Shown here: positions 216-32,960 of the stretch, piece after piece | How the letters are laid out: the number at the start of each line of letters is the position of its first letter | Position numbering within the stretch: position 1 is the stretch's first letter | NCBI GenBank assembly: GCA_014378525.1 | Contig: JACMNL010000024.1 | Coordinates: 1 to 45,206, forward strand | Direction: 5' to 3' | DNA length: 45,206 bases | Source: Bacteriovorax sp. | GTDB lineage: Bacteria; Bdellovibrionota; Bacteriovoracia; Bacteriovoracales; Bacteriovoracaceae | Made by a program: the position numbers and the translations under genes | The notes under the pieces: generated by a model | Databases searched by the model: none | The model's input: the letters and a program-made list of their open reading frames with translations, nothing else | What the model was told of the DNA's origin: nothing

Positions 216-1757
216 ATGAGAATGTACGTCCTCCTCATTTTTGCTGCTATCTTTCTGTCGTTTTCAACGGCCTATTACGCTATTAATCTTCAGCAAAAAA
301 CTATTGCTTCAACTTCCGACATCGCCGACATCCAGAAATTGAAAAAACAATTTGAAGGACGGGCAAAACCACAATTGGAAATTGATTTAAGTTCGATGTA
401 TCCGTCGCGAAGATTTGCCCAGCTTCTTCAACCTTCGAATGTTTTCTCGAGAGGAAATTCGACGAAGACTTATTTTTCGAGACCGTGTGTTTTAGACAGC
501 GAAAAGATGTCGAAACTTTATTTTGACAAGAGTGAGACCTGGGAAGATTTTCGCTGCAACAGACTGGGAAAACTTCCACCGAAATTTTTTGATAATCCAC
601 CGATGATTCATGAAAGTGGTGTGAGTTATGCATACCTGGCCTTTTTGTCGGGGCGCGATCCGTTCTGGACAATTGAATGGGTGAAATCAAGCTTAAATCT
701 TTTTCACGTTTATGAACTTCAGGAATTGCCTTCAAGCAGTCTGGAAGGAAATTTCCGTGTTCTCTCGAAATTAAAAAAAGCTGACCTCGAAGCGCTGATT
801 AAAGGCAGTCCTTATATTATTACGGAAGAACATTTCCTGGTGAGAGACCGACAGGAATTTAATGTTACTTATAAAATCTACTCGAAAATGGACCTGGAAA
901 ATTTCTTTAAGGAGAAATTGTATTTCATCAAGCCTTATCAGGAAGGTGAGCAGTGTTTTTATCGTGAAGGGCGTTTTTGCTGGGAAAAAAGTGCAGGATC
1001 TCTGGCACAGATTTTCATGCAGTCTTCGATTATTATTTTTATCGGTTCGATCATCGTTCTTTTTTTAATTGCAGTTATTTTATTCCGCAAAATAAAAATG
1101 CAAAAATTTGAAGAGGAAAAAAAGAAACATGCTTTACGTGTTCTAACTCATGAGTTGCGTACTCCTATTTCAAATTTATTGTTACAGGTAGAGCAAATTA
1201 ATAAACAATCCGATCTGCTTCCAGCTGGAATACTCGAAGAGTTTTTAAAAATGGAAGGGGAAGTTTATCGATTAAAACGTCTCGCTGAAAAAAGTACAAG
1301 TTATTTACAGACAACGGATGATAAATCTCTCATTGCCATTAATATACAAACTGTCCCTTCTGTGAATGAATTGGTACGGGATATGATCGATGATTATATC
1401 CAAAAGGGTGTAGTTTTATTACCTGCAAATCATGATCATTCTTTCTCACTCGATGTTTACTGGTATTCGATCTGTTTAAAAAACCTGATTGAGAATGCAA
1501 TTCATCACGGGAAAGCACCTGTAAGAGTAGAGATTAAAATTTTAGATGAAACTCTTTCCATCGATGTGATTGATTATGGATTTTCAAATTATAAAACGCT
1601 GGATGAAATGCTTGCCAGTGACCGCACCGGGAAAAACTCTACCGGTCTTGGTCTCGGACTTTCTATCGTAGAAAAAATCATGAAAGAGATGAATGGAAAA
1701 TTAGTCTATACAACTCACCCGACAACTTTCTCGCTTTTTTTAAGGAATAAAAAATGA
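216..1757 (+). CDS. membrane sensor histidine kinase with periplasmic domain
   Basis: A 513-residue inner-membrane sensor kinase. Residues 3-23 form a first membrane helix, residues about 30-268 a periplasmic sensor domain, and residues about 270-290 a second helix, followed directly by the kinase core with no obvious HAMP domain. The H-box THELRTP places the phospho-accepting histidine at 312. The N-box is NLIENAIHHG and the G-box TGLGLGLSIVEK. The sensor domain holds four cysteines (91, 114, 247, 255) that could form two disulfides, and a WTIEWVKSSLNLFHVYELQE stretch. It overlaps the downstream response regulator gene by 4 bases (ATGA), so the two are translationally coupled and presumably form a pair. 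From memory the sensor resembles the DUF3404 type found in the Vibrio VxrA/WigK kinases; that assignment is tentative and needs a profile search. Confidence 0.88.
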   Translation: MRMYVLLIFAAIFLSFSTAYYAINLQQKTIASTSDIADIQKLKKQFEGRAKPQLEIDLSSMYPSRRFAQLLQPSNVFSRGNSTKTYFSRPCVLDSEKMSKLYFDKSETWEDFRCNRLGKLPPKFFDNPPMIHESGVSYAYLAFLSGRDPFWTIEWVKSSLNLFHVYELQELPSSSLEGNFRVLSKLKKADLEALIKGSPYIITEEHFLVRDRQEFNVTYKIYSKMDLENFFKEKLYFIKPYQEGEQCFYREGRFCWEKSAGSLAQIFMQSSIIIFIGSIIVLFLIAVILFRKIKMQKFEEEKKKHALRVLTHELRTPISNLLLQVEQINKQSDLLPAGILEEFLKMEGEVYRLKRLAEKSTSYLQTTDDKSLIAINIQTVPSVNELVRDMIDDYIQKGVVLLPANHDHSFSLDVYWYSICLKNLIENAIHHGKAPVRVEIKILDETLSIDVIDYGFSNYKTLDEMLASDRTGKNSTGLGLGLSIVEKIMKEMNGKLVYTTHPTTFSLFLRNKK

Positions 1758-2425
1758 AGCAGGTTTTAATTATTGAAGACGACGAAAATTTAGGGAAGTC
1801 CTTGAAGAAAATCATGGAAGATGAAGGCATGGTTACACATCTGGCGACCACACTTGCCCAGGCGCGTGAACTTGCTTCTGATACACTTGATGTGATTGTT
1901 CTCGACTGGATGTTACCCGACGGACAGGGAATCGATTTCCTGCGTGAACTACGCGCTAAAAATAAAACTGTGCCGGTCATTATGTTGACAGCGCGAACTG
2001 ATCTTATCGACAAAGTTCTGGGACTGGAAACTGGGGCCAGTGACTATATGACAAAACCATTTGAGTCACGTGAACTTGTGGCACGAGTACGAGTTCAACT
2101 TAGAGAAAAAAATACAGCTGTAACCCGTGAAGAAAAAATAGTTATCGGAAAAATTATCATCAATTCAGTAGAGAAAGAAGTTCTCTATGACGGTAAAAGA
2201 GTCATCTTTACAAAAATGGAATACGAGCTTCTGAAAATTCTTGCTGAAAATCCCAGACAAACTTTTTCGCGGGAAAAACTTCTCGATAAAGTCTGGGGTT
2301 ATGAAAATTTTCCGACGACCAGAACTGTAGATACACATGTCCTGCAAATTCGTCAGAAGACTTCTGATGATGTCATTGAGACCATCAGAGGTCTTGGGTA
2401 TCGATTAGGCAGTATGCTGAGTTAG
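1754..2425 (+). CDS. OmpR/PhoB-family response regulator
   Basis: A 223-residue DNA-binding response regulator. The receiver domain (1-115) has the acidic pair D9/D10, the phospho-acceptor D51 in VIVLDWMLPDG, a switch threonine in IMLTAR and the conserved lysine in YMTKPF. The C-terminal half (about 125-220) is a winged helix of the OmpR type, with LLDKVWGY, the TVDTHVLQIRQK recognition helix and a final ETIRGLGYRL hairpin. It is coupled by a 4-base overlap to the upstream membrane kinase, which is its likely phosphodonor. Targets cannot be read from the window. No terminator with a clear T-run was seen before the converging gene at 2473. Confidence 0.93.
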   Translation: MKQVLIIEDDENLGKSLKKIMEDEGMVTHLATTLAQARELASDTLDVIVLDWMLPDGQGIDFLRELRAKNKTVPVIMLTARTDLIDKVLGLETGASDYMTKPFESRELVARVRVQLREKNTAVTREEKIVIGKIIINSVEKEVLYDGKRVIFTKMEYELLKILAENPRQTFSREKLLDKVWGYENFPTTRTVDTHVLQIRQKTSDDVIETIRGLGYRLGSMLS

Positions 2426-4449: not shown

Positions 4450-4650
4450 AGCTAATTCTATCTTTTTTTTTAGAAAAATTTATATTTTTGAGATGTGAAA
4501 TTTTTGCTTGTTTAGCCTACTTATTATTAAACTTTTTTTTAAAGACACGAAATCAGATTCAAATGTCAGGTGAAGTTGACAAACATTTCACCGGGAACTG
4601 ACTTAACTTACTAATCTCCTGTTACGATGAGTTTACCATCAGGAGGAACT

Positions 4651-5451
4651 ATGAAATCAATTAAACTATTTTCGATTGCAATGATCTCTGCAACTGTTTT
4701 AGCAGGATGCACGAGCGACAAGGACATGAAGGACCAAATCTCTAAGGTATTAAAGGAGAATCCATCAATCCTTACTGAGGCAATTGAAAAACATCCGGCG
4801 GAATTTATAACTGCACTTCAAAATGCAGCGAAAAACGCACAGGAATCGATGGGAAAAGTACGCGAGGAAGAAGAAAAGAAGCAGCTGGAAGAATCCTTCA
4901 ATAAACCGATGGTCGCATCGATGAGAAGTGATGAAGCTGTGAGAGGGCCGAAAGATGCAGTGATCACACTGGTGGAATACTCTGACTTCGAATGCCCGTT
5001 TTGTTCACGTGGAAATGAAACTGTTAATAACTTAATGAAGAAGTACGAAGGAAAAATTAAATTCGTCTACAAACATCTTCCATTAAGCTTCCACGAGCAG
5101 GCGATGATCTCTGCTCAATATTTCGAAGCGATTCGCATGCAAAATAATGACAAGGCCTTTGCATTTCACGACGAGATATTCGCAAATCAGGCAAAATTAA
5201 AAAACGGTACAGCTTTCCTGGATTCTGCAGCTAAGAAAGTTGGTGCTGATATGGCGAGACTAAAAAAAGATTTACATTCAGATGCTGTTAAAAAAAGAAT
5301 TGCAACTGATGTCGAAGAGGCCGGAAAATTCGGAATGCAGGGGACTCCAGGTTTCCTTCTAAATGGAGTGCCTGTAAGAGGGGCGTACCCAGCTGAGTAT
5401 TTCGTAACTCTGGTTGATGAGCTTCAAAAACGCGGCAAATTGAAAATCTAA
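4651..5451 (+). CDS. DsbA-family thioredoxin-like lipoprotein
   Basis: A 266-residue exported thiol-disulfide protein. The start chosen is the ATG at 4651, which follows an AGGAGG ribosome site at 4641-4646; an in-frame ATG at 4627 would put that site inside the gene. The N-terminus is a lipoprotein signal with lipobox LAGC (C20). Residues about 22-95 are helical and charged, then a DsbA/thioredoxin fold begins (AVITLVEYSDFECPFC), with redox motif CPFC at 115-118 and a cis-proline loop GTPGFLL. This arrangement is known from the DSBA-like thioredoxin domain family (PF01323/PF13462), which includes BdbD/ScsC-type proteins. It probably acts at the inner face of the outer membrane or in the periplasm. 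It stands alone, with no DsbB-like partner nearby. Confidence 0.88.
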   Translation: MKSIKLFSIAMISATVLAGCTSDKDMKDQISKVLKENPSILTEAIEKHPAEFITALQNAAKNAQESMGKVREEEEKKQLEESFNKPMVASMRSDEAVRGPKDAVITLVEYSDFECPFCSRGNETVNNLMKKYEGKIKFVYKHLPLSFHEQAMISAQYFEAIRMQNNDKAFAFHDEIFANQAKLKNGTAFLDSAAKKVGADMARLKKDLHSDAVKKRIATDVEEAGKFGMQGTPGFLLNGVPVRGAYPAEYFVTLVDELQKRGKLKI

Positions 5452-5592: not shown

Positions 5593-5675
5593 GTAAGAAG
5601 CAGTAAGCCTCAACTGTCATTTTAATGACTTACTAAACCACTAAAACGTCAATTTGGTGACTTACACAATGTAAG
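5593..5675. promoter_or_regulatory. cluster of dyad sites, candidate activator-binding region
   Basis: Two copies of GTCA-N6-TGAC followed by TTAC (5616-5629 and 5648-5661) have centres 32 bases apart, about three helical turns. The pentamer GTAAG or its complement CTTAC occurs five times (5593, 5603, 5629, 5661, 5671), the last two forming the palindrome CTTAC-ACAAT-GTAAG. The copies lie roughly 115-155 bases before the predicted start at about 5775, the usual distance for enhancer sites of sigma-54 activators. Confidence 0.45.
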
Positions 5676-5747
5676 TTTAGTTTCGATATATCATAGACTT
5701 AAGTGGCTTATACACACAAAAAGGGTCATAAATAGGCCTTTGAAAAC

Positions 5748-5765
5748 TTGGCATGAAGGGTGCAA
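5748..5765 (+). promoter_or_regulatory. candidate sigma-54 (RpoN) promoter
   Basis: TTGGCATG at 5748-5755, then four bases, then GTGCAA at 5760-5765. The invariant GG (5750-5751) and GC (5762-5763) are exactly ten bases apart, as in the known -24/-12 consensus. The predicted transcription start is near 5775. Confidence 0.55.
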
Positions 5766-5774
5766 TTAGTATTT

Positions 5775-5873
5775 GTGTGTGTGTGGAGAATTGATTAAAA
5801 GGATTTTTTTCAACCTCCTGTGAATGTCTCTCAAAAAGCCCATTGCTGAAATACGCACTGGGCTTTTTTGTTT
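5775..5873 (+). ncRNA. candidate small RNA, about 100 nt
   Basis: A sigma-54-type promoter lies just upstream and an intrinsic terminator closes the segment, yet no open reading frame with a ribosome site lies between them. The predicted RNA begins with a run of GT repeats, carries CCTCCT at 5814-5819 (complementary to a Shine-Dalgarno core), and ends in the terminator stem AAAAAGCCCA (5833-5842) with TGGGCTTTTT (5859-5868) and more Ts to 5874. A GGAG at 5785-5788 could pair with the CTCC and mask it. This is inferred only from the signals. The alternative is a leader for the gene at 5937, with the terminator acting as attenuator. Confidence 0.45.
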
Positions 5874-5874
5874 T
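5833..5874 (+). terminator. intrinsic terminator of the candidate small RNA
   Basis: A ten-pair stem, AAAAAGCCCA (5833-5842) with TGGGCTTTTT (5859-5868), has an inner TGC/GCA extension and is followed by TTTTTTGTTTT. No protein-coding gene ends within 380 bases upstream on this strand, so it must serve a non-coding transcript or act as an attenuator. Confidence 0.75.
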
Positions 5875-5936
5875 AGCTTCCTTCTTTTATAATCTATAAT
5901 CTAAAATCTACTCAACAATTAACAATGGATCCTATT

Positions 5937-6383
5937 GTGAAAAAAATTATTGGTCTTTTGTGTCTACTTTTAAGCGTAAATGTATGGGCCGCCGGCAATA
6001 ACGGTCTGGGATTGGTTTTCGGTGATCCTTCCGGAATAACTTTTCAACATAAATTTAGTGAACAACAGTTTACTGATCTCTATTTTGCCTACACGTGGGA
6101 TAGCGAATGGGTTTTTATGGGTGACTACAAATTTCATCTTCCAGGATTGTTTGGAGAAAAACTGCCAATTACTCCTTATGCAGGGATCGGGGCCTTTTTT
6201 AAGGTCGAAGATAAAAAACATGATGATGATGTTGCCCTTGGTGTTCGAATCCCTCTAGGGATCGACTGGAAAGTCCCCAATGCTCCGATAGTTGTGTTCG
6301 GTGAACTTGTTCCGGCCATGAGACTGATTAAATCGACTGACGGAGATTTTCAGGCAGGGATTGGCGGCCGCTTTTATTTTTAG
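5937..6383 (+). CDS. small outer-membrane beta-barrel-like protein
   Basis: A protein of about 148 residues with a Sec signal peptide (MKKIIGLLCLLLSVNVWAA) and no lipobox. The GTG at 5937 is preferred because the signal peptide then begins with the usual MKK; an ATG at 5925 would add four residues and has no ribosome site. The mature part alternates hydrophobic and polar residues, is rich in glycine and aromatics, and ends in GIGGRFYF with a C-terminal phenylalanine, as in small outer-membrane barrels. The segment GLGLVFGDPSGITFQHKF recalls the BAPKO_0422/DUF3996 family of outer-membrane barrels, but that link is from memory. The next gene starts two bases after its stop codon, so the two are probably translated together. 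Confidence 0.7.
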   Translation: MKKIIGLLCLLLSVNVWAAGNNGLGLVFGDPSGITFQHKFSEQQFTDLYFAYTWDSEWVFMGDYKFHLPGLFGEKLPITPYAGIGAFFKVEDKKHDDDVALGVRIPLGIDWKVPNAPIVVFGELVPAMRLIKSTDGDFQAGIGGRFYF

Positions 6384-6961: not shown

Positions 6962-8198
6962 AGTGTGGGGTCGGCAGCTTTAAGATAAAGCGTGTGAAGA
7001 GCTTGTTGCGCTCTAAAAGCAGCTCTCCACCGTGAACCTTGGCAAAGCCATGGGCCGCGCTCAGACCAAGGCCTATTCCACTGCCGATTTCTTTGGTTGT
7101 AAAAAAAGGCTCCATGACTTTCGTGGCATTGGCATCTGAGATGCCCACGCCGTTATCAGAAATCGCAATGACGTAAAAATCTTTTTCTATTCCCAGAGTG
7201 ATATTTATTAATGGAGAAGCGCTGTTATTTGTCGCTTCTATGGCGTTGGTGCAAAGTTTAAATATAATCTGCACGATTTGATTTTTTTTACAAAGGCACA
7301 TGGCCTTATCTGTTGGATTAAAAACAATATCAGTTTCCAGATCATTAAACATTCTTATGCTCAAACGTATTCCATCATCGATGAGATCATTCAGATCATT
7401 CAACTCCAGAGACTGATCTGAATTATCCTGGGAGAATTCTTTTAGACCACCGGTGATTCTAGTTATCCTGTTTACCATTCTCGAAATCTTATCGGAGAGG
7501 ATGTTGAATTTTTCTGCATCTTCTTTATTTTGTGGAGGTAAGCGCTTCATCTGTTCAATGGCGCCTTTAATGACAGCGAGGGGGTTATTTATTTCGTGAG
7601 AAATTCCGCCGGCCATTTCACCGAGGGCCGCCATTTTTGACTGCTCGATGAGTCCGTTAGTCAGCTTTTCCACTTCTTTTTTATACTGATAATTTGTATA
7701 AACGGAAATCCCGATCAAAGAGAAGACGACCAGGTTCGCTGAATGAAAGTGAAATAATTCAAGTGGAGTGAGTGGTGAAAAAAATCCGAGGATGAGCGGT
7801 CCCGTAAATCCCAGAAGTGAATGAAATAAATAAAATTCCCAGCTGATGGAAGACGAACTTAAAATTGCCGCAAGAACAAAATAAGACCAGCAGTAAAATA
7901 GAGACCAGTGATTGATATGCAGTAAATACATATAGAGCAGCATGAATGAGATACTGGCAACACGCAGATAGAGAAGTGCAGCTTTATATCTGTCATCAAT
8001 GCCAAAAAAGCTGGTGATAAATCCGGCCAGTGAAATCATACAGACCAAGATTCTTCCAGGGAGATAATCAAAACTATCGGGATTAATTTTTGTAATGACA
8101 AAAAAGTATGTCAGACAACAGATGAATGTACTGAGTAAAAAAATTCTTACACGCTTCAGCGATTGTTTATATTCGATATCTGAAAAACTTGTAATCAT
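6948..8198 (-). CDS. six-helix membrane sensor histidine kinase
   Basis: A 416-residue kinase whose first 172 residues contain about six hydrophobic segments (around 18-38, 46-67, 73-94, 99-117, 122-143 and 151-172) with short loops, so it probably senses within the membrane or through small ligands. A HisKA domain follows with H-box ISHEINNPLAVIKG, then a HATPase domain with SDNGVGI and GSGIGLGLSAAHG. The core is closely similar in style to the kinase at 2473-4449. Its start codon overlaps the stop codon of the arginase-family gene upstream by one base (TAATG), so the two are translationally coupled. No cognate regulator is adjacent. The 3' end overlaps the converging pentapeptide gene. Confidence 0.9.
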   Translation of the reverse strand: MITSFSDIEYKQSLKRVRIFLLSTFICCLTYFFVITKINPDSFDYLPGRILVCMISLAGFITSFFGIDDRYKAALLYLRVASISFMLLYMYLLHINHWSLFYCWSYFVLAAILSSSSISWEFYLFHSLLGFTGPLILGFFSPLTPLELFHFHSANLVVFSLIGISVYTNYQYKKEVEKLTNGLIEQSKMAALGEMAGGISHEINNPLAVIKGAIEQMKRLPPQNKEDAEKFNILSDKISRMVNRITRITGGLKEFSQDNSDQSLELNDLNDLIDDGIRLSIRMFNDLETDIVFNPTDKAMCLCKKNQIVQIIFKLCTNAIEATNNSASPLINITLGIEKDFYVIAISDNGVGISDANATKVMEPFFTTKEIGSGIGLGLSAAHGFAKVHGGELLLERNKLFTRFILKLPTPHSIQS

Positions 8199-9112
8199 TA
8201 ATGATCCATAATTTTATAGATTAGTCCTGCAAGGGTGCGGGCACCTTTTTGCGAAAGATTGTCGTAAACCGGATTATATTCGTAAAAACCATAATGTTTA
8301 GTTCTTAAAACATCCTGAGCATAAATTAATAATTCTTCCACAAAATGGTAAGGCAGACCTCTGTGATTGACGGCCGACACACCTTCCATAATTCCAGAAT
8401 CGAGCGCATCTGCATCCAGTGAAAAAAGATACAGGGCCTCGTGATCGTAGGGGATCATTCTCTCAAAAAGTTTTCTATTGCTGGTAAAATTATTCGTCAG
8501 ATGTTTCAGGTCATCATAAGTCGCCACCACTTCTTTGGTTTTGCCGAGTTCATTCATCGTAGATTTTGAATTGGCAAAATCATGAATGCCCAATTGAATG
8601 AGTTCAAACTGGCCTTCAAACTCGTTGGCAAATTGTCTGAAAGGAGTTCCTGAATTGGTGAACGTATCAATGCGGGTATCGAGATGGGCATCGATGTTGA
8701 TGACTTTTATTTTTTTTGATTTTGTGTTCAGTGCTTTTAAAAGCGGGTAGACGTGGTCGTGACCGCCGCCCAGGTAGATGAACTTTGAAGCTTTGGTATA
8801 ACTCTGAAGTGCAGTGGCCAGAGTGGTTGTGTAAACACTCTGGGCGTGTTCAAAAGACTCCAGTTCAAGTTCGGGATTGGCGATCTCAATATCGGACCAG
8901 GTCTCTTCGTTGTGCAGGGCCAGTTTTTTGACGATGTTGATGATGGCCTCAGGAGCAAAATTTGATCCACGACGGCCGGAGTTTCTGATTGTCCCGATAT
9001 CTGATGACGATTTGAAAAAAAGAATGCTGGCCGAGCTCGGTGCTGTCCTGTTATTTACGATTCGCTCACTGTCTCGTGTGCTCGCATTTTCAATAATCAA
9101 ATCTTTTTTCAT
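8198..9112 (-). CDS. arginase/formimidoylglutamase-family hydrolase
   Basis: A protein of about 304 residues of the Mn-dependent ureohydrolase family, which cleaves guanidino or formimino groups from arginine, agmatine or formimidoylglutamate. The metal-binding motifs are visible in order: GGGHDH, NIDAHLD and SLDADALD, followed by GVSAVNHRGL as in this family. The third motif lacks the usual proline after the last aspartate (DSG), as in some HutG-like members, so formimidoylglutamase is the best guess, but the substrate is not proven. The start at 9112 is set by a GAGGAT ribosome site four bases upstream; earlier in-frame starts would run toward the divergent gene. It leads a two-gene unit with the membrane kinase. 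Confidence 0.82.
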   Translation of the reverse strand: MKKDLIIENASTRDSERIVNNRTAPSSASILFFKSSSDIGTIRNSGRRGSNFAPEAIINIVKKLALHNEETWSDIEIANPELELESFEHAQSVYTTTLATALQSYTKASKFIYLGGGHDHVYPLLKALNTKSKKIKVINIDAHLDTRIDTFTNSGTPFRQFANEFEGQFELIQLGIHDFANSKSTMNELGKTKEVVATYDDLKHLTNNFTSNRKLFERMIPYDHEALYLFSLDADALDSGIMEGVSAVNHRGLPYHFVEELLIYAQDVLRTKHYGFYEYNPVYDNLSQKGARTLAGLIYKIMDH

Positions 9113-9171
9113 GGATATCCTCATTTGCGGTTTACCTAAATGGATATGTGAGTATATCATTAAAAGATCAA

Positions 9172-21130: not shown

Positions 21131-22353
21131 TAAACGAAATACTCTTTTGCGATTTCACGTTCATTGTAATTCGAGGCCATTGTCTGTCCATAAGCTCCGG
21201 CATTATCAATGACAACGATTTCTCCAGCAGTTAGTTTTGGCAATTTTCTTTTTGTTCCAAAGCAGTCTGAAGTTTCGCAAATAGGGCCCACGATATCTGT
21301 CGTGATCATTTTCTTTGATGATTTTGATGGAAGGACTTCGTGGTAAGCTTCGTAAAGAGCAGGGCGAATGAGGTCATTCATACCGGCATCGATAATTGTG
21401 AAGTGATTGTTGTCAGAAGTTTTCGTGCGGACAACACGAGAGACCAGCACTCCCATTTTTCCAACGATAATTCTACCCGGCTCAAACACTACGCGGGGGC
21501 AGTGGTCTGTTTTGGAATAATAATATTTTTCTAGGGCCTGTGAAACTGTGGCCATATACTGATCAATGCTTGCCAGTTTTAATTTTTCTTCGGCAGTGTA
21601 ATCGATTCCTAAACCACCACCTACATCTAAAAACTCCAGAGGAGTTTCAAGAGACAGAGCAAGTTTTGATAGTTCTTCAATTGCTTTTACTGTCGCTTTC
21701 ATTTCTGTCAGCTGACTACCAATATGAATACTTAGTCCAACTAAAGTTGTATTGGTCCACAAATGTTTTGCAGCGACTGCTTCATGGATATCTTCTTTCA
21801 AAAGACCGAACTTGTGGGTTTTATTTCCTGTTGAAATATGTTTGTGAGTTTTAGCTGCTACTCTCGGGTTTAACCTGAATGCGACACGTGCCTGTCGTTT
21901 TTCTTTTCTGGCGATTTGATTGATGAGTTCCAGCTCTTCAATCGATTCGACGTTGAATGAGTAGATTCCTTTTTTGCCACATCTCAGGGCAAAACGGATT
22001 TCTTCTTCTGTCTTTGCTACACCTGAAAAAACGATTTTTTGCGGATCGATTCCAGCACTAAGCGCTTTCTTTAATTCACCGACAGAAACCACGTCAGCGC
22101 CGCTTCCCAAGGTCTTTAAAGTCGATAGAACTTCTTTATTGGAATTAGCTTTCAGTGCGTAACAAACCAAAGGAGAAACTATCTCATTTTTGGCAGCGCT
22201 CTTGCTAAAATATTCATAGTAATGGCGCAGTATTTTTTTACTGTACAGGTAAAAAGGTGTGCGTTTTTTAGCAGCAATGGATTCTAAAGTTTTACCGTCG
22301 AAACAAAGCTGATTGTTTTTGTATTGCAGGGGACTTGGTAGTATATTTTTCAT
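21130..22353 (-). CDS. lysA: diaminopimelate decarboxylase
   Basis: A PLP enzyme of about 407 residues that makes L-lysine from meso-diaminopimelate, the last step of lysine synthesis. The start at 22353 ([13 protein letters not shown]) is chosen because a longer in-frame start would read far into the divergent uvrB gene. Visible motifs are the PLP lysine in [40 protein letters not shown], the active-site cysteine in [12 protein letters not shown] and [16 protein letters not shown]. It is coupled by TAATG to the YeiH-family gene. The lysA and uvrB starts are only about 30 bases apart, so the promoters must overlap the coding ends. Confidence 0.95.
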
Positions 22354-31987: not shown

Positions 31988-32126
31988 GTTCATCAATCAA
32001 AGGGCTGAGTCATGGTGACGAAGCTTGAATACCAAATTCAGTTGAACAGAATGTTCGTTGATGGTTCGCCCCTAAAAAGGCCCATCAAAACCAAGGAGGG
32101 AAAACCGAAATTACACGGAGGATCTC

Positions 32127-32960
32127 ATGGGTTTACGTATTAACACGAACGTTACTTCACTCGCTGCTCAAAGAACTTTGGGCGCCAACAACGCTGAACA
32201 AGCATCTACATTAGGTAAGCTTTCTTCAGGGTCAAGAATTGTTAAGTCTGCAGATGATGCTGCTGGTTTAGCGATCTCAGAAAAATTAAAAGCACAAATC
32301 AGAGGTGTAAATCAGGCGGAACGAAACGCTAATGATGGTATCTCGATGATTCAAACCGCAGAAGGTGGCTTGAATGAAACATCAAACATTTTAGTACGTC
32401 TTCGTGAACTAGCTGTTCAGTCTGCTTCTGATACTGTAGGTGATACAGAAAGAAAGTATACTGACCTTGAATATCAAAACCTAAAGCAAGAGATGGAAAG
32501 AATCTCTCAGGTTACTGAGTTCAACGGTAAAAAACTACTTAACGGATCTGGTGATAAATTCGATTTCCAGGTTGGTATCAACAACGACGATTTCCAGGAT
32601 AGAATTAAGTACGATGCTAAGAAACAAAACTCTGGTATTGACGCTTTGGGAGTTGCTGAATTATCAGTTTCTTCAAAAGAGTCTTCTCAGACTTCACTTG
32701 CAAAAATCGATATGGCGATTCAAAACGTATCGGGGCAAAGAGCAGAACTTGGAGCGGTTCAGAACCGTCTAACTTCTACTGTAAATAACCTTCAGTCTTC
32801 GTCTGAAAACTTATCTGCTGCTAACTCTCGTATCAGAGATACAGATTTTGCTGCAGAATCAGCTAAGAACACTAAGATGAACATCTTAACTCAAGCTGGT
32901 ACTTCGGTTTTAGCTCAAGCGAACTCTCAAGGACAAGCTGCACTGAAACTTTTAGGTTGA
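32127..32960 (+). CDS. fliC: flagellin
   Basis: A 277-residue flagellin that forms the filament. The N-terminal D0/D1 region (MGLRINTNVTSLAAQRTL...LGKLSSGSRI...SADDAAGLAISEKLK) and the C-terminal D1/D0 region (NSRIRDTDFAAESAKNTKMN...ANSQGQAALKLLG) are both complete. The protein is near the minimal length because the variable D2/D3 part is replaced by only about 60 residues around FDFQVGINNDDFQDRIKYDA. A GGAGG-type ribosome site (ACGGAGGATCTC) precedes the ATG. It has a matching FliA promoter and an intrinsic terminator, so it is a single-gene unit, divergent from the CheY/CheX operon. More flagellins are likely elsewhere. Confidence 0.97.
   Translation: MGLRINTNVTSLAAQRTLGANNAEQASTLGKLSSGSRIVKSADDAAGLAISEKLKAQIRGVNQAERNANDGISMIQTAEGGLNETSNILVRLRELAVQSASDTVGDTERKYTDLEYQNLKQEMERISQVTEFNGKKLLNGSGDKFDFQVGINNDDFQDRIKYDAKKQNSGIDALGVAELSVSSKESSQTSLAKIDMAIQNVSGQRAELGAVQNRLTSTVNNLQSSSENLSAANSRIRDTDFAAESAKNTKMNILTQAGTSVLAQANSQGQAALKLLG

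Follow-up and report, generated by a model that had tools for sequence, protein, structure and literature searches.

The locus lies within the window, by which we mean the whole stretch of Bacteriovorax sp. DNA that was analyzed (45,206 nucleotides), in a gap of 473 bp between two open reading frames (ORFs), one at 4627-5451 (a weak thioredoxin-like lipoprotein match, under cut-off) and a small one at 5925-6383 (no match). An initial annotation had proposed here a small RNA controlled by sigma-54 with upstream activator sites, and had given the size of the gap as 485 bases; the latter figure failed. The features, as we now place them, are the following.

5616..5629, no strand: upstream activator site 1, GTCATTTTAATGAC, an exact GTCA-N6-TGAC (putative, no binding data).
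5648..5661, no strand: upstream activator site 2, GTCAATTTGGTGAC, an exact GTCA-N6-TGAC (putative, no binding data).
5748..5763, + strand: sigma-54 -24/-12 promoter element, TTGGCATGAAGGGTGC (family-wide promoter scoring).
5775..5869, + strand: small RNA gene, about 95-100 nt (covariance-model match).
5775..5784, + strand: (GU)5 run at the inferred 5' end (TGTGTG in 98/98 main-type copies).
5785..5818, + strand: conserved hairpin GGAG...AAAAGGAUUUU...CUCC (folding and covariation).
5801..5803, + strand: apical-loop GGA, a CsrA-type motif (AGGA in 98/98 main-type copies).
5823..5832, + strand: conserved AAUGUCUCUC, predicted to be unpaired (GTCTCTC in 89/98 main-type copies).
5833..5874, + strand: intrinsic terminator (folding and covariation of helix 3).

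The individual elements of the initial annotation held. The two palindromes are 32 bp apart (5616 and 5648), and the promoter element has its GG and GC ten bases apart (GG-N10-GC intact) and scores 10/12 against TTGGCACGNNNNTTGC, which is the sigma-54 -24/-12 consensus. The terminator hairpin occupies 5833-5869 and is followed by GTTTT (to 5874), and the proposed RNA start near 5775 agrees with the ~5774-5776 inferred from spacing. In the whole window there are three exact GTCA-N6-TGAC palindromes (1976, 5616 and 5648) and two GG-N10-GC sites at 10/12 or better (5748 and 22190); the site at 22190, which also scores 10/12, lies within a long opposite-strand ORF and probably arose by chance. A simple terminator scan left the hairpin at 5833 unreported, presumably through its loop-length rule, and folding reveals it. 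The 101-nt transcript folds with -24.8 kcal/mol (z = -2.1). No Rfam family reached gathering level in the window, and on the gap there were only weak sub-threshold matches (E 0.13-9.4).

A search with the gap DNA in 57 genomes, including the window's own, gave matches in 24, including all 13 other members of the genus (four matches were left unaligned, L022 and L024 being due to chance and L025 and L026 being pieces of loci). In the resulting genus alignment the palindromes, promoter, (GU)n, hairpin, AAUGUCUCUC and terminator form islands within diverged DNA. The covariance model R1, built on 22 transcript copies only and with the promoter excluded, found matches in 97 of the 129 genomes of the family Bacteriovoracaceae, in 33 of 48 genera (99 matches in total, two each in 2 genomes). 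We rejected one R1 match, L138 (33-35 bits), as a false positive and excluded it, along with the antisense matches L009 (27 bits) and L012 (25 bits), from alignment A5 and later counts. Model R2, run across the phylum (368 genomes), had matches in 106, namely the 97 of R1, G060 (43 bits), G123 and 7 genomes outside the family; these last scored 31-34 bits, the same level as the false positive L138, and occurrence outside the family was rejected as noise. G123 (38 bits with R2, place unread) was counted as RNA-negative; its match, at C47:10396-10486, and the csrA match of this genome are ~740 bp apart. Scanning named genomes for the pattern yielded 24 stretches, which were labelled Bacteriovorax, Halobacteriovorax, Bacteriovoracaceae, Halobacteriovoraceae or with broader names (for example, Bdellovibrionales, Oligoflexia or Deltaproteobacteria bacterium).

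Of the 75 loci longer than 5 kb, 60 have a hutG-like gene downstream, on the opposite strand, as does the window (where the hutG/agmatinase-like gene is at 8198-9160, with matches under cut-offs), from which we infer that the RNA gene has kept one ancestral place. In one genome (G012) the RNA region is present on two contigs, L002 and L158, in versions that differ slightly, and one version is cut by the contig end; a strain mixture or a duplication is possible. On the strength of the family-wide conservation, we reject chance or artefact as an explanation of these elements. The initial annotation had named lack of conservation in close relatives as a potential refutation: the -24/-12 element and the terminator passed this test, the exact palindromes are kept in 73 of 97 loci, and the proposed order of enhancer, promoter, RNA and terminator without a reading frame is supported by the family-wide comparison.

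We evaluated the promoter on the DNA upstream of the R1 matches, which is an independent test because R1 holds no promoter. Leaving L138 aside, all 97 matches with upstream DNA score 9-12/12 for TTGGCACGNNNNTTGC at the right distance (L080, cut off from any upstream DNA by the contig end at which it starts, was omitted), and mononucleotide-shuffled upstream regions reach only 5-9/12. The GG-N10-GC core is present in 96 of the 97 loci (the exception, L014, has GT for GC at -12), and the -12 G sits 9-17 nt ahead of the first model position. An RpoN domain was detected in 12 of the 13 genomes tested, the window's own included; G103, a carrier of a divergent RNA whose genome is 90% complete, gave no RpoN match.

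The same 97 loci carry two exact GTCA-N6-TGAC palindromes in 36 cases, one in 37 and none in 24, and shuffled upstream regions contain an exact site in 6 of 1940. The spacing within exact pairs is narrowly distributed, at 32 (20 pairs), 31 (8), 33 (7) or 30 (1). Of the 129 genomes, 40 contain the pair, at 42 places in total (the reversed-pattern control gave 0), and 36 of these 42 pairs lie 74-114 bp from an R1 match; 4 further pairs belong to the g55 genomes described below, 1 is the contig-end copy in G012, running into the same RNA, and the remaining pair (G095) is on a contig-end piece and cannot be judged. An off-spacing control, in which one extra N between -24 and -12 was combined with the palindrome, produced 2 matches in 129 genomes.

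The structure of the RNA was assessed on alignment A5 (98 rows, 93 distinct), in which 92.1% of cells pair and both partners vary in 20 of the 25 pairs, with a covariation score of 0.526 versus 0.207 for shuffled alignments and 0.155 or less for the structure slid by 1-3 columns. A5 was fitted to the proposed structure, so the covariation result is favoured. Helix 3, the terminator, is paired in 98.9% of cells and has both-side changes in 9 of 12 pairs, and single-sequence folds of 83 distinct hairpin domains (that of L123 truncated) mostly give the same hairpin. RNAalifold on alignment A3 gave another first helix, and it was our own structure that went into the model; this structure was later borne out by covariation, again on the alignment fitted to it. 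We also rejected a reading frame, as the AAUGUCUCUC AUG is missing from L105, L107 and L113 and the lengths ignore frame. We consider it very probable, on comparative sequence and without expression data, that Bacteriovoracaceae have at this locus a stand-alone small RNA gene with a sigma-54 promoter.

Divergent forms of the RNA were also found. Four g55 genomes are missed by both R1 and R2, yet have the palindromes, the -24/-12 element and a terminated RNA, the latter without (GU)n or UGUCUCUC and with two A/U-stem hairpins that have GGA at the tip (judged by eye). The neighbours of one of these (L154) are a kinase and a regulator with 33% and 55% identity to those at window positions 216-2425, which are a histidine kinase and a response regulator. 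A search for palindrome plus promoter in 35 genomes revealed a divergent RNA with six GGA in G103, and also one in G060 (the divergent RNA listed as L165 has 6 GGA). When 32 genomes, including all 28 R1-negatives outside g55, were searched for the promoter together with GGATTTT, L260 in G104 came up; it has palindrome, promoter, GGA hairpin and terminator and adjoins a GYF-domain-like gene, also found near the window RNA. Other matches of that search were rejected for want of a palindrome (G014, G031 at three places, G092, G128, G136 and G146), and the divergent positive control G099 went unmatched in it. By minimum free energy (MFE) folding, only 4 of 7 divergent RNAs have an apical loop with GGA, versus 23% of shuffles (the pieces for L160 and L162 stop short of their terminators), and the divergent hairpins are therefore merely suggestive; they may lend the CsrA motif weak support.

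For the main type the loop motif is much more pronounced: the MFE folds of 91 of the 93 distinct RNAs place GGA in the loop of an apical hairpin, versus 115 of 1860 dinucleotide shuffles (6%). Each main-type RNA contains 1-3 GGA (two in 63 of 98; the shuffled mean is 1.1). CsrA is encoded in 119 of the 129 genomes (117 above cut-off), and in the window's genome (G000) csrA clusters with fliW, flgK and a flagellin-domain (flgL-like) gene; G019 has a second csrA-like match, which is the weaker one (46 bits). In other bacteria CsrA holds back flagellum genes. The flagellin gene at 32127-32960 has AAGGA 30-34 and ACGGA 8-12 bases ahead of its start codon (window 32093-32119), and with ACGGA in the ribosome-binding site this leader is a plausible CsrA target, a possibility that we infer from sequence alone. 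CsrA ligands selected by SELEX are for the most part hairpins that have GGA in the loop and no more than four contiguous pairs (PMC7652899). From the GGA loop, the invariant AGGA, the presence of csrA, the SELEX ligands and the flagellin leader we infer that the RNA binds CsrA, and we lean toward CsrA as its partner, with no binding data to confirm it. The A/U stem of the RNA differs from the consensus SELEX hexaloop, and the conserved (GU)n and UGUCUCUC are unexplained by CsrA binding. All five RNA-negative genomes examined keep csrA, fliW, flgK and flgL; the RNA is therefore not essential to that system, and the idea that the RNA disappeared because flagella were lost is unsupported.

To which activator the palindromes might respond can be approached through co-occurrence. 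The window's genome has 13 sigma-54 activator domain matches, and 7 of the 12 that were read contain GAFTGA or GSFTGA. Among these seven, only the regulator on contig C96, which has receiver, AAA+ and Fis-type domains, follows the RNA in ten other genomes (a comparison resting on 59 of their 140 matches to the activator domain): reciprocal best hits identify orthologues in six of six RNA-bearing genomes and in G104, where the orthologue was noticed before the RNA was found, and none in G016, G019 or G101. Over the family, 99 genomes have both RNA and regulator, 5 the RNA only, 10 the regulator only and 15 neither (Fisher p = 2e-9); for the 73 good genomes the corresponding numbers are 67, 1, 0 and 5. 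One of the RNA-only genomes (G013, G088, G095, G121 and G142) is at least 90% complete, and all 10 regulator-only genomes are below 90%. Absence of the regulator here means no match at E <= 1e-150, and fragments can be missed; the p-values overstate the association, because related genomes are not independent.

In all five loci read, the regulator is upstream of a TPR gene, an activator-like gene and flgB- and flgC-like genes, with four or five opposite-strand genes in between in L268 and L270. The gene matches in L268 are, in order, TPR, Sigma54_activat, two flagellar rod proteins, FliE, FliF and FliG. The sigma-54-activator-like protein before flgB occurs in all five loci (L268 4080-5018, with counterparts in L267 and L269-L271), and those of G000 and G103 are without GAFTGA. 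We saw no consistent pattern of a palindrome pair at the regulator's own region in the 5 loci, and no activator gene beside the RNA in the flanks examined (mostly ~4 kb a side). The NtrC-type regulator near flgB-flgC-fliE-fliF-fliG is likely the activator of the RNA, an inference from co-occurrence that remains correlative.

In the model that we propose, sigma-54 RNA polymerase would transcribe the RNA (as judged from comparative sequence, without expression data), and an activator, for which the NtrC-type response regulator encoded near flagellar genes is the best candidate on co-occurrence, would bind two GTCA-N6-TGAC sites ~90-160 bp upstream, spaced mostly by 31-33 bp (~three helical turns), and thereby switch the RNA on. 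The predicted product is an RNA of ~100 nt made up of a 5' (GU)n, a GGA-tipped hairpin, a UGUCUCUC stretch and a terminator. Its GGA loop may capture CsrA, and CsrA-repressed mRNAs, such as that of flagellin, would then be released during flagellum building; this step is inferred and not shown. Taken as a whole, a sigma-54 RNA gene with a palindrome-binding activator and action through CsrA is the explanation that we favour, if by a modest margin, given that there are no transcript, binding or mutant data. A bolder circuit, in which flagellar assembly, via the NtrC-type activator and sigma-54, makes a CsrA-titrating RNA alongside FliW, is one that we would not quite expect to be borne out.

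The main rival is a base-pairing small RNA in the manner of Qrr or GlmZ, acting via (GU)n, UGUCUCUC or both, with the GGA hairpin merely a stabiliser or a protein landing site. It remains possible, although neither a target search nor an Hfq search stands behind that assessment. In its favour, the conserved TGTGTG (98/98) and GTCTCTC (89/98) of main-type copies are both outside the predicted stems, and a terminator with a 3' U-run, as Hfq-type small RNAs have, also counts for it; against it, both stretches are absent (by eye) from the divergent RNAs of g55 and g59, in which the promoter is kept. A dual function, with CsrA on the GGA loop serving as helper or brake to base-pairing, would accommodate the coexistence of both kinds of conserved element in the main type; it needs more assumptions, no data separate the two activities, and we think it unlikely. 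A decoy for Hfq/Crc like CrcZ, under a sigma-54 activator, would share the same promoter logic (PMC8871633), but the conserved loop is GGA, and we regard this reading as very improbable (A-rich Hfq motifs were outside the analysis). Finally, a short mRNA or leader peptide in place of a small RNA could draw on the AUG within the AAUGUCUCUC stretch of many copies; the loss of that AUG in the three loci named above, the disregard of lengths for frame and the covarying stems all but exclude it.

The preferred reading, a CsrA-binding RNA under sigma-54, has partial parallels in known systems. CsrA decoy RNAs exist (PMC7652899), and the Csr/Rsm decoys of Gammaproteobacteria (CsrB/C, RsmX/Y/Z) resemble the RNA described here in their loop GGA, stand-alone intergenic gene and terminator, in having a response regulator as the likely activator, and in the presence of CsrA. 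They differ from it in that the promoter here is of the sigma-54 type (which argues against GacA/UvrY control), the lineage bears FliW and there is no Rfam match, and CsrB has roughly 18 sites whereas a main-type RNA has 1-3 GGA. CrcZ/CrcY of Pseudomonadaceae is a sigma-54-dependent decoy small RNA with the response regulator CbrB as its direct activator (PMC8871633), but CrcZ binds Crc/Hfq and the conserved motifs of the new RNA differ. Qrr and GlmY/GlmZ, to which the initial annotation had likened the locus, have a sigma-54 promoter and activator sites before a small RNA, as here; the likeness holds for this promoter architecture only, no Rfam covariance model matching, and the candidate activator falls far under the cut-offs for LuxO (327 versus 800 bits) and GlrR (334 versus 763). 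CJnc230 (FlmE) of Campylobacter jejuni is an RpoN-linked small RNA of the flagellar cascade in a CsrA-FliW bacterium (PMC11187230); unlike the RNA here, it is processed from flgE mRNA and represses flgM and another mRNA, and no role as a CsrA decoy is described in that paper. The attack-phase small RNAs of Bdellovibrio bacteriovorus, three of which have a FliA motif, and merRNA, a c-di-GMP riboswitch (PMC3627812), are similar in being small RNAs from a predatory relative; the FliA motif and the riboswitch set them apart from the RNA here, as does the failure of R2 to exceed 31-34 bits outside the family.

A 2015 survey found FliW and BarA-UvrY to be strongly anti-correlated, with 340 of 346 genomes having one or the other and six maybe both; BarA-UvrY drives CsrA-binding small RNAs, and small RNA antagonists in FliW species were left for further study (PMC4682653). 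We saw neither an account of this RNA nor a combination of sigma-54 and a CsrA-type RNA in a FliW lineage in the openly licensed PMC literature searched, and few small RNAs of predatory bacteria were found in the open-access literature searched. The locus makes the question of small RNA antagonists of CsrA in FliW species directly testable, and it represents a regulatory RNA shared across a family of predatory bacteria, for which a defined promoter, activator sites and a candidate activator are now at hand. If the proposed action is correct, the sigma-54 flagellar tier would be tied to CsrA, and possibly to the decision of these predators between swimming and growth; should the bolder circuit also prove true, two CsrA antagonists, an RNA and a protein, would operate in one flagellar cascade of predators.
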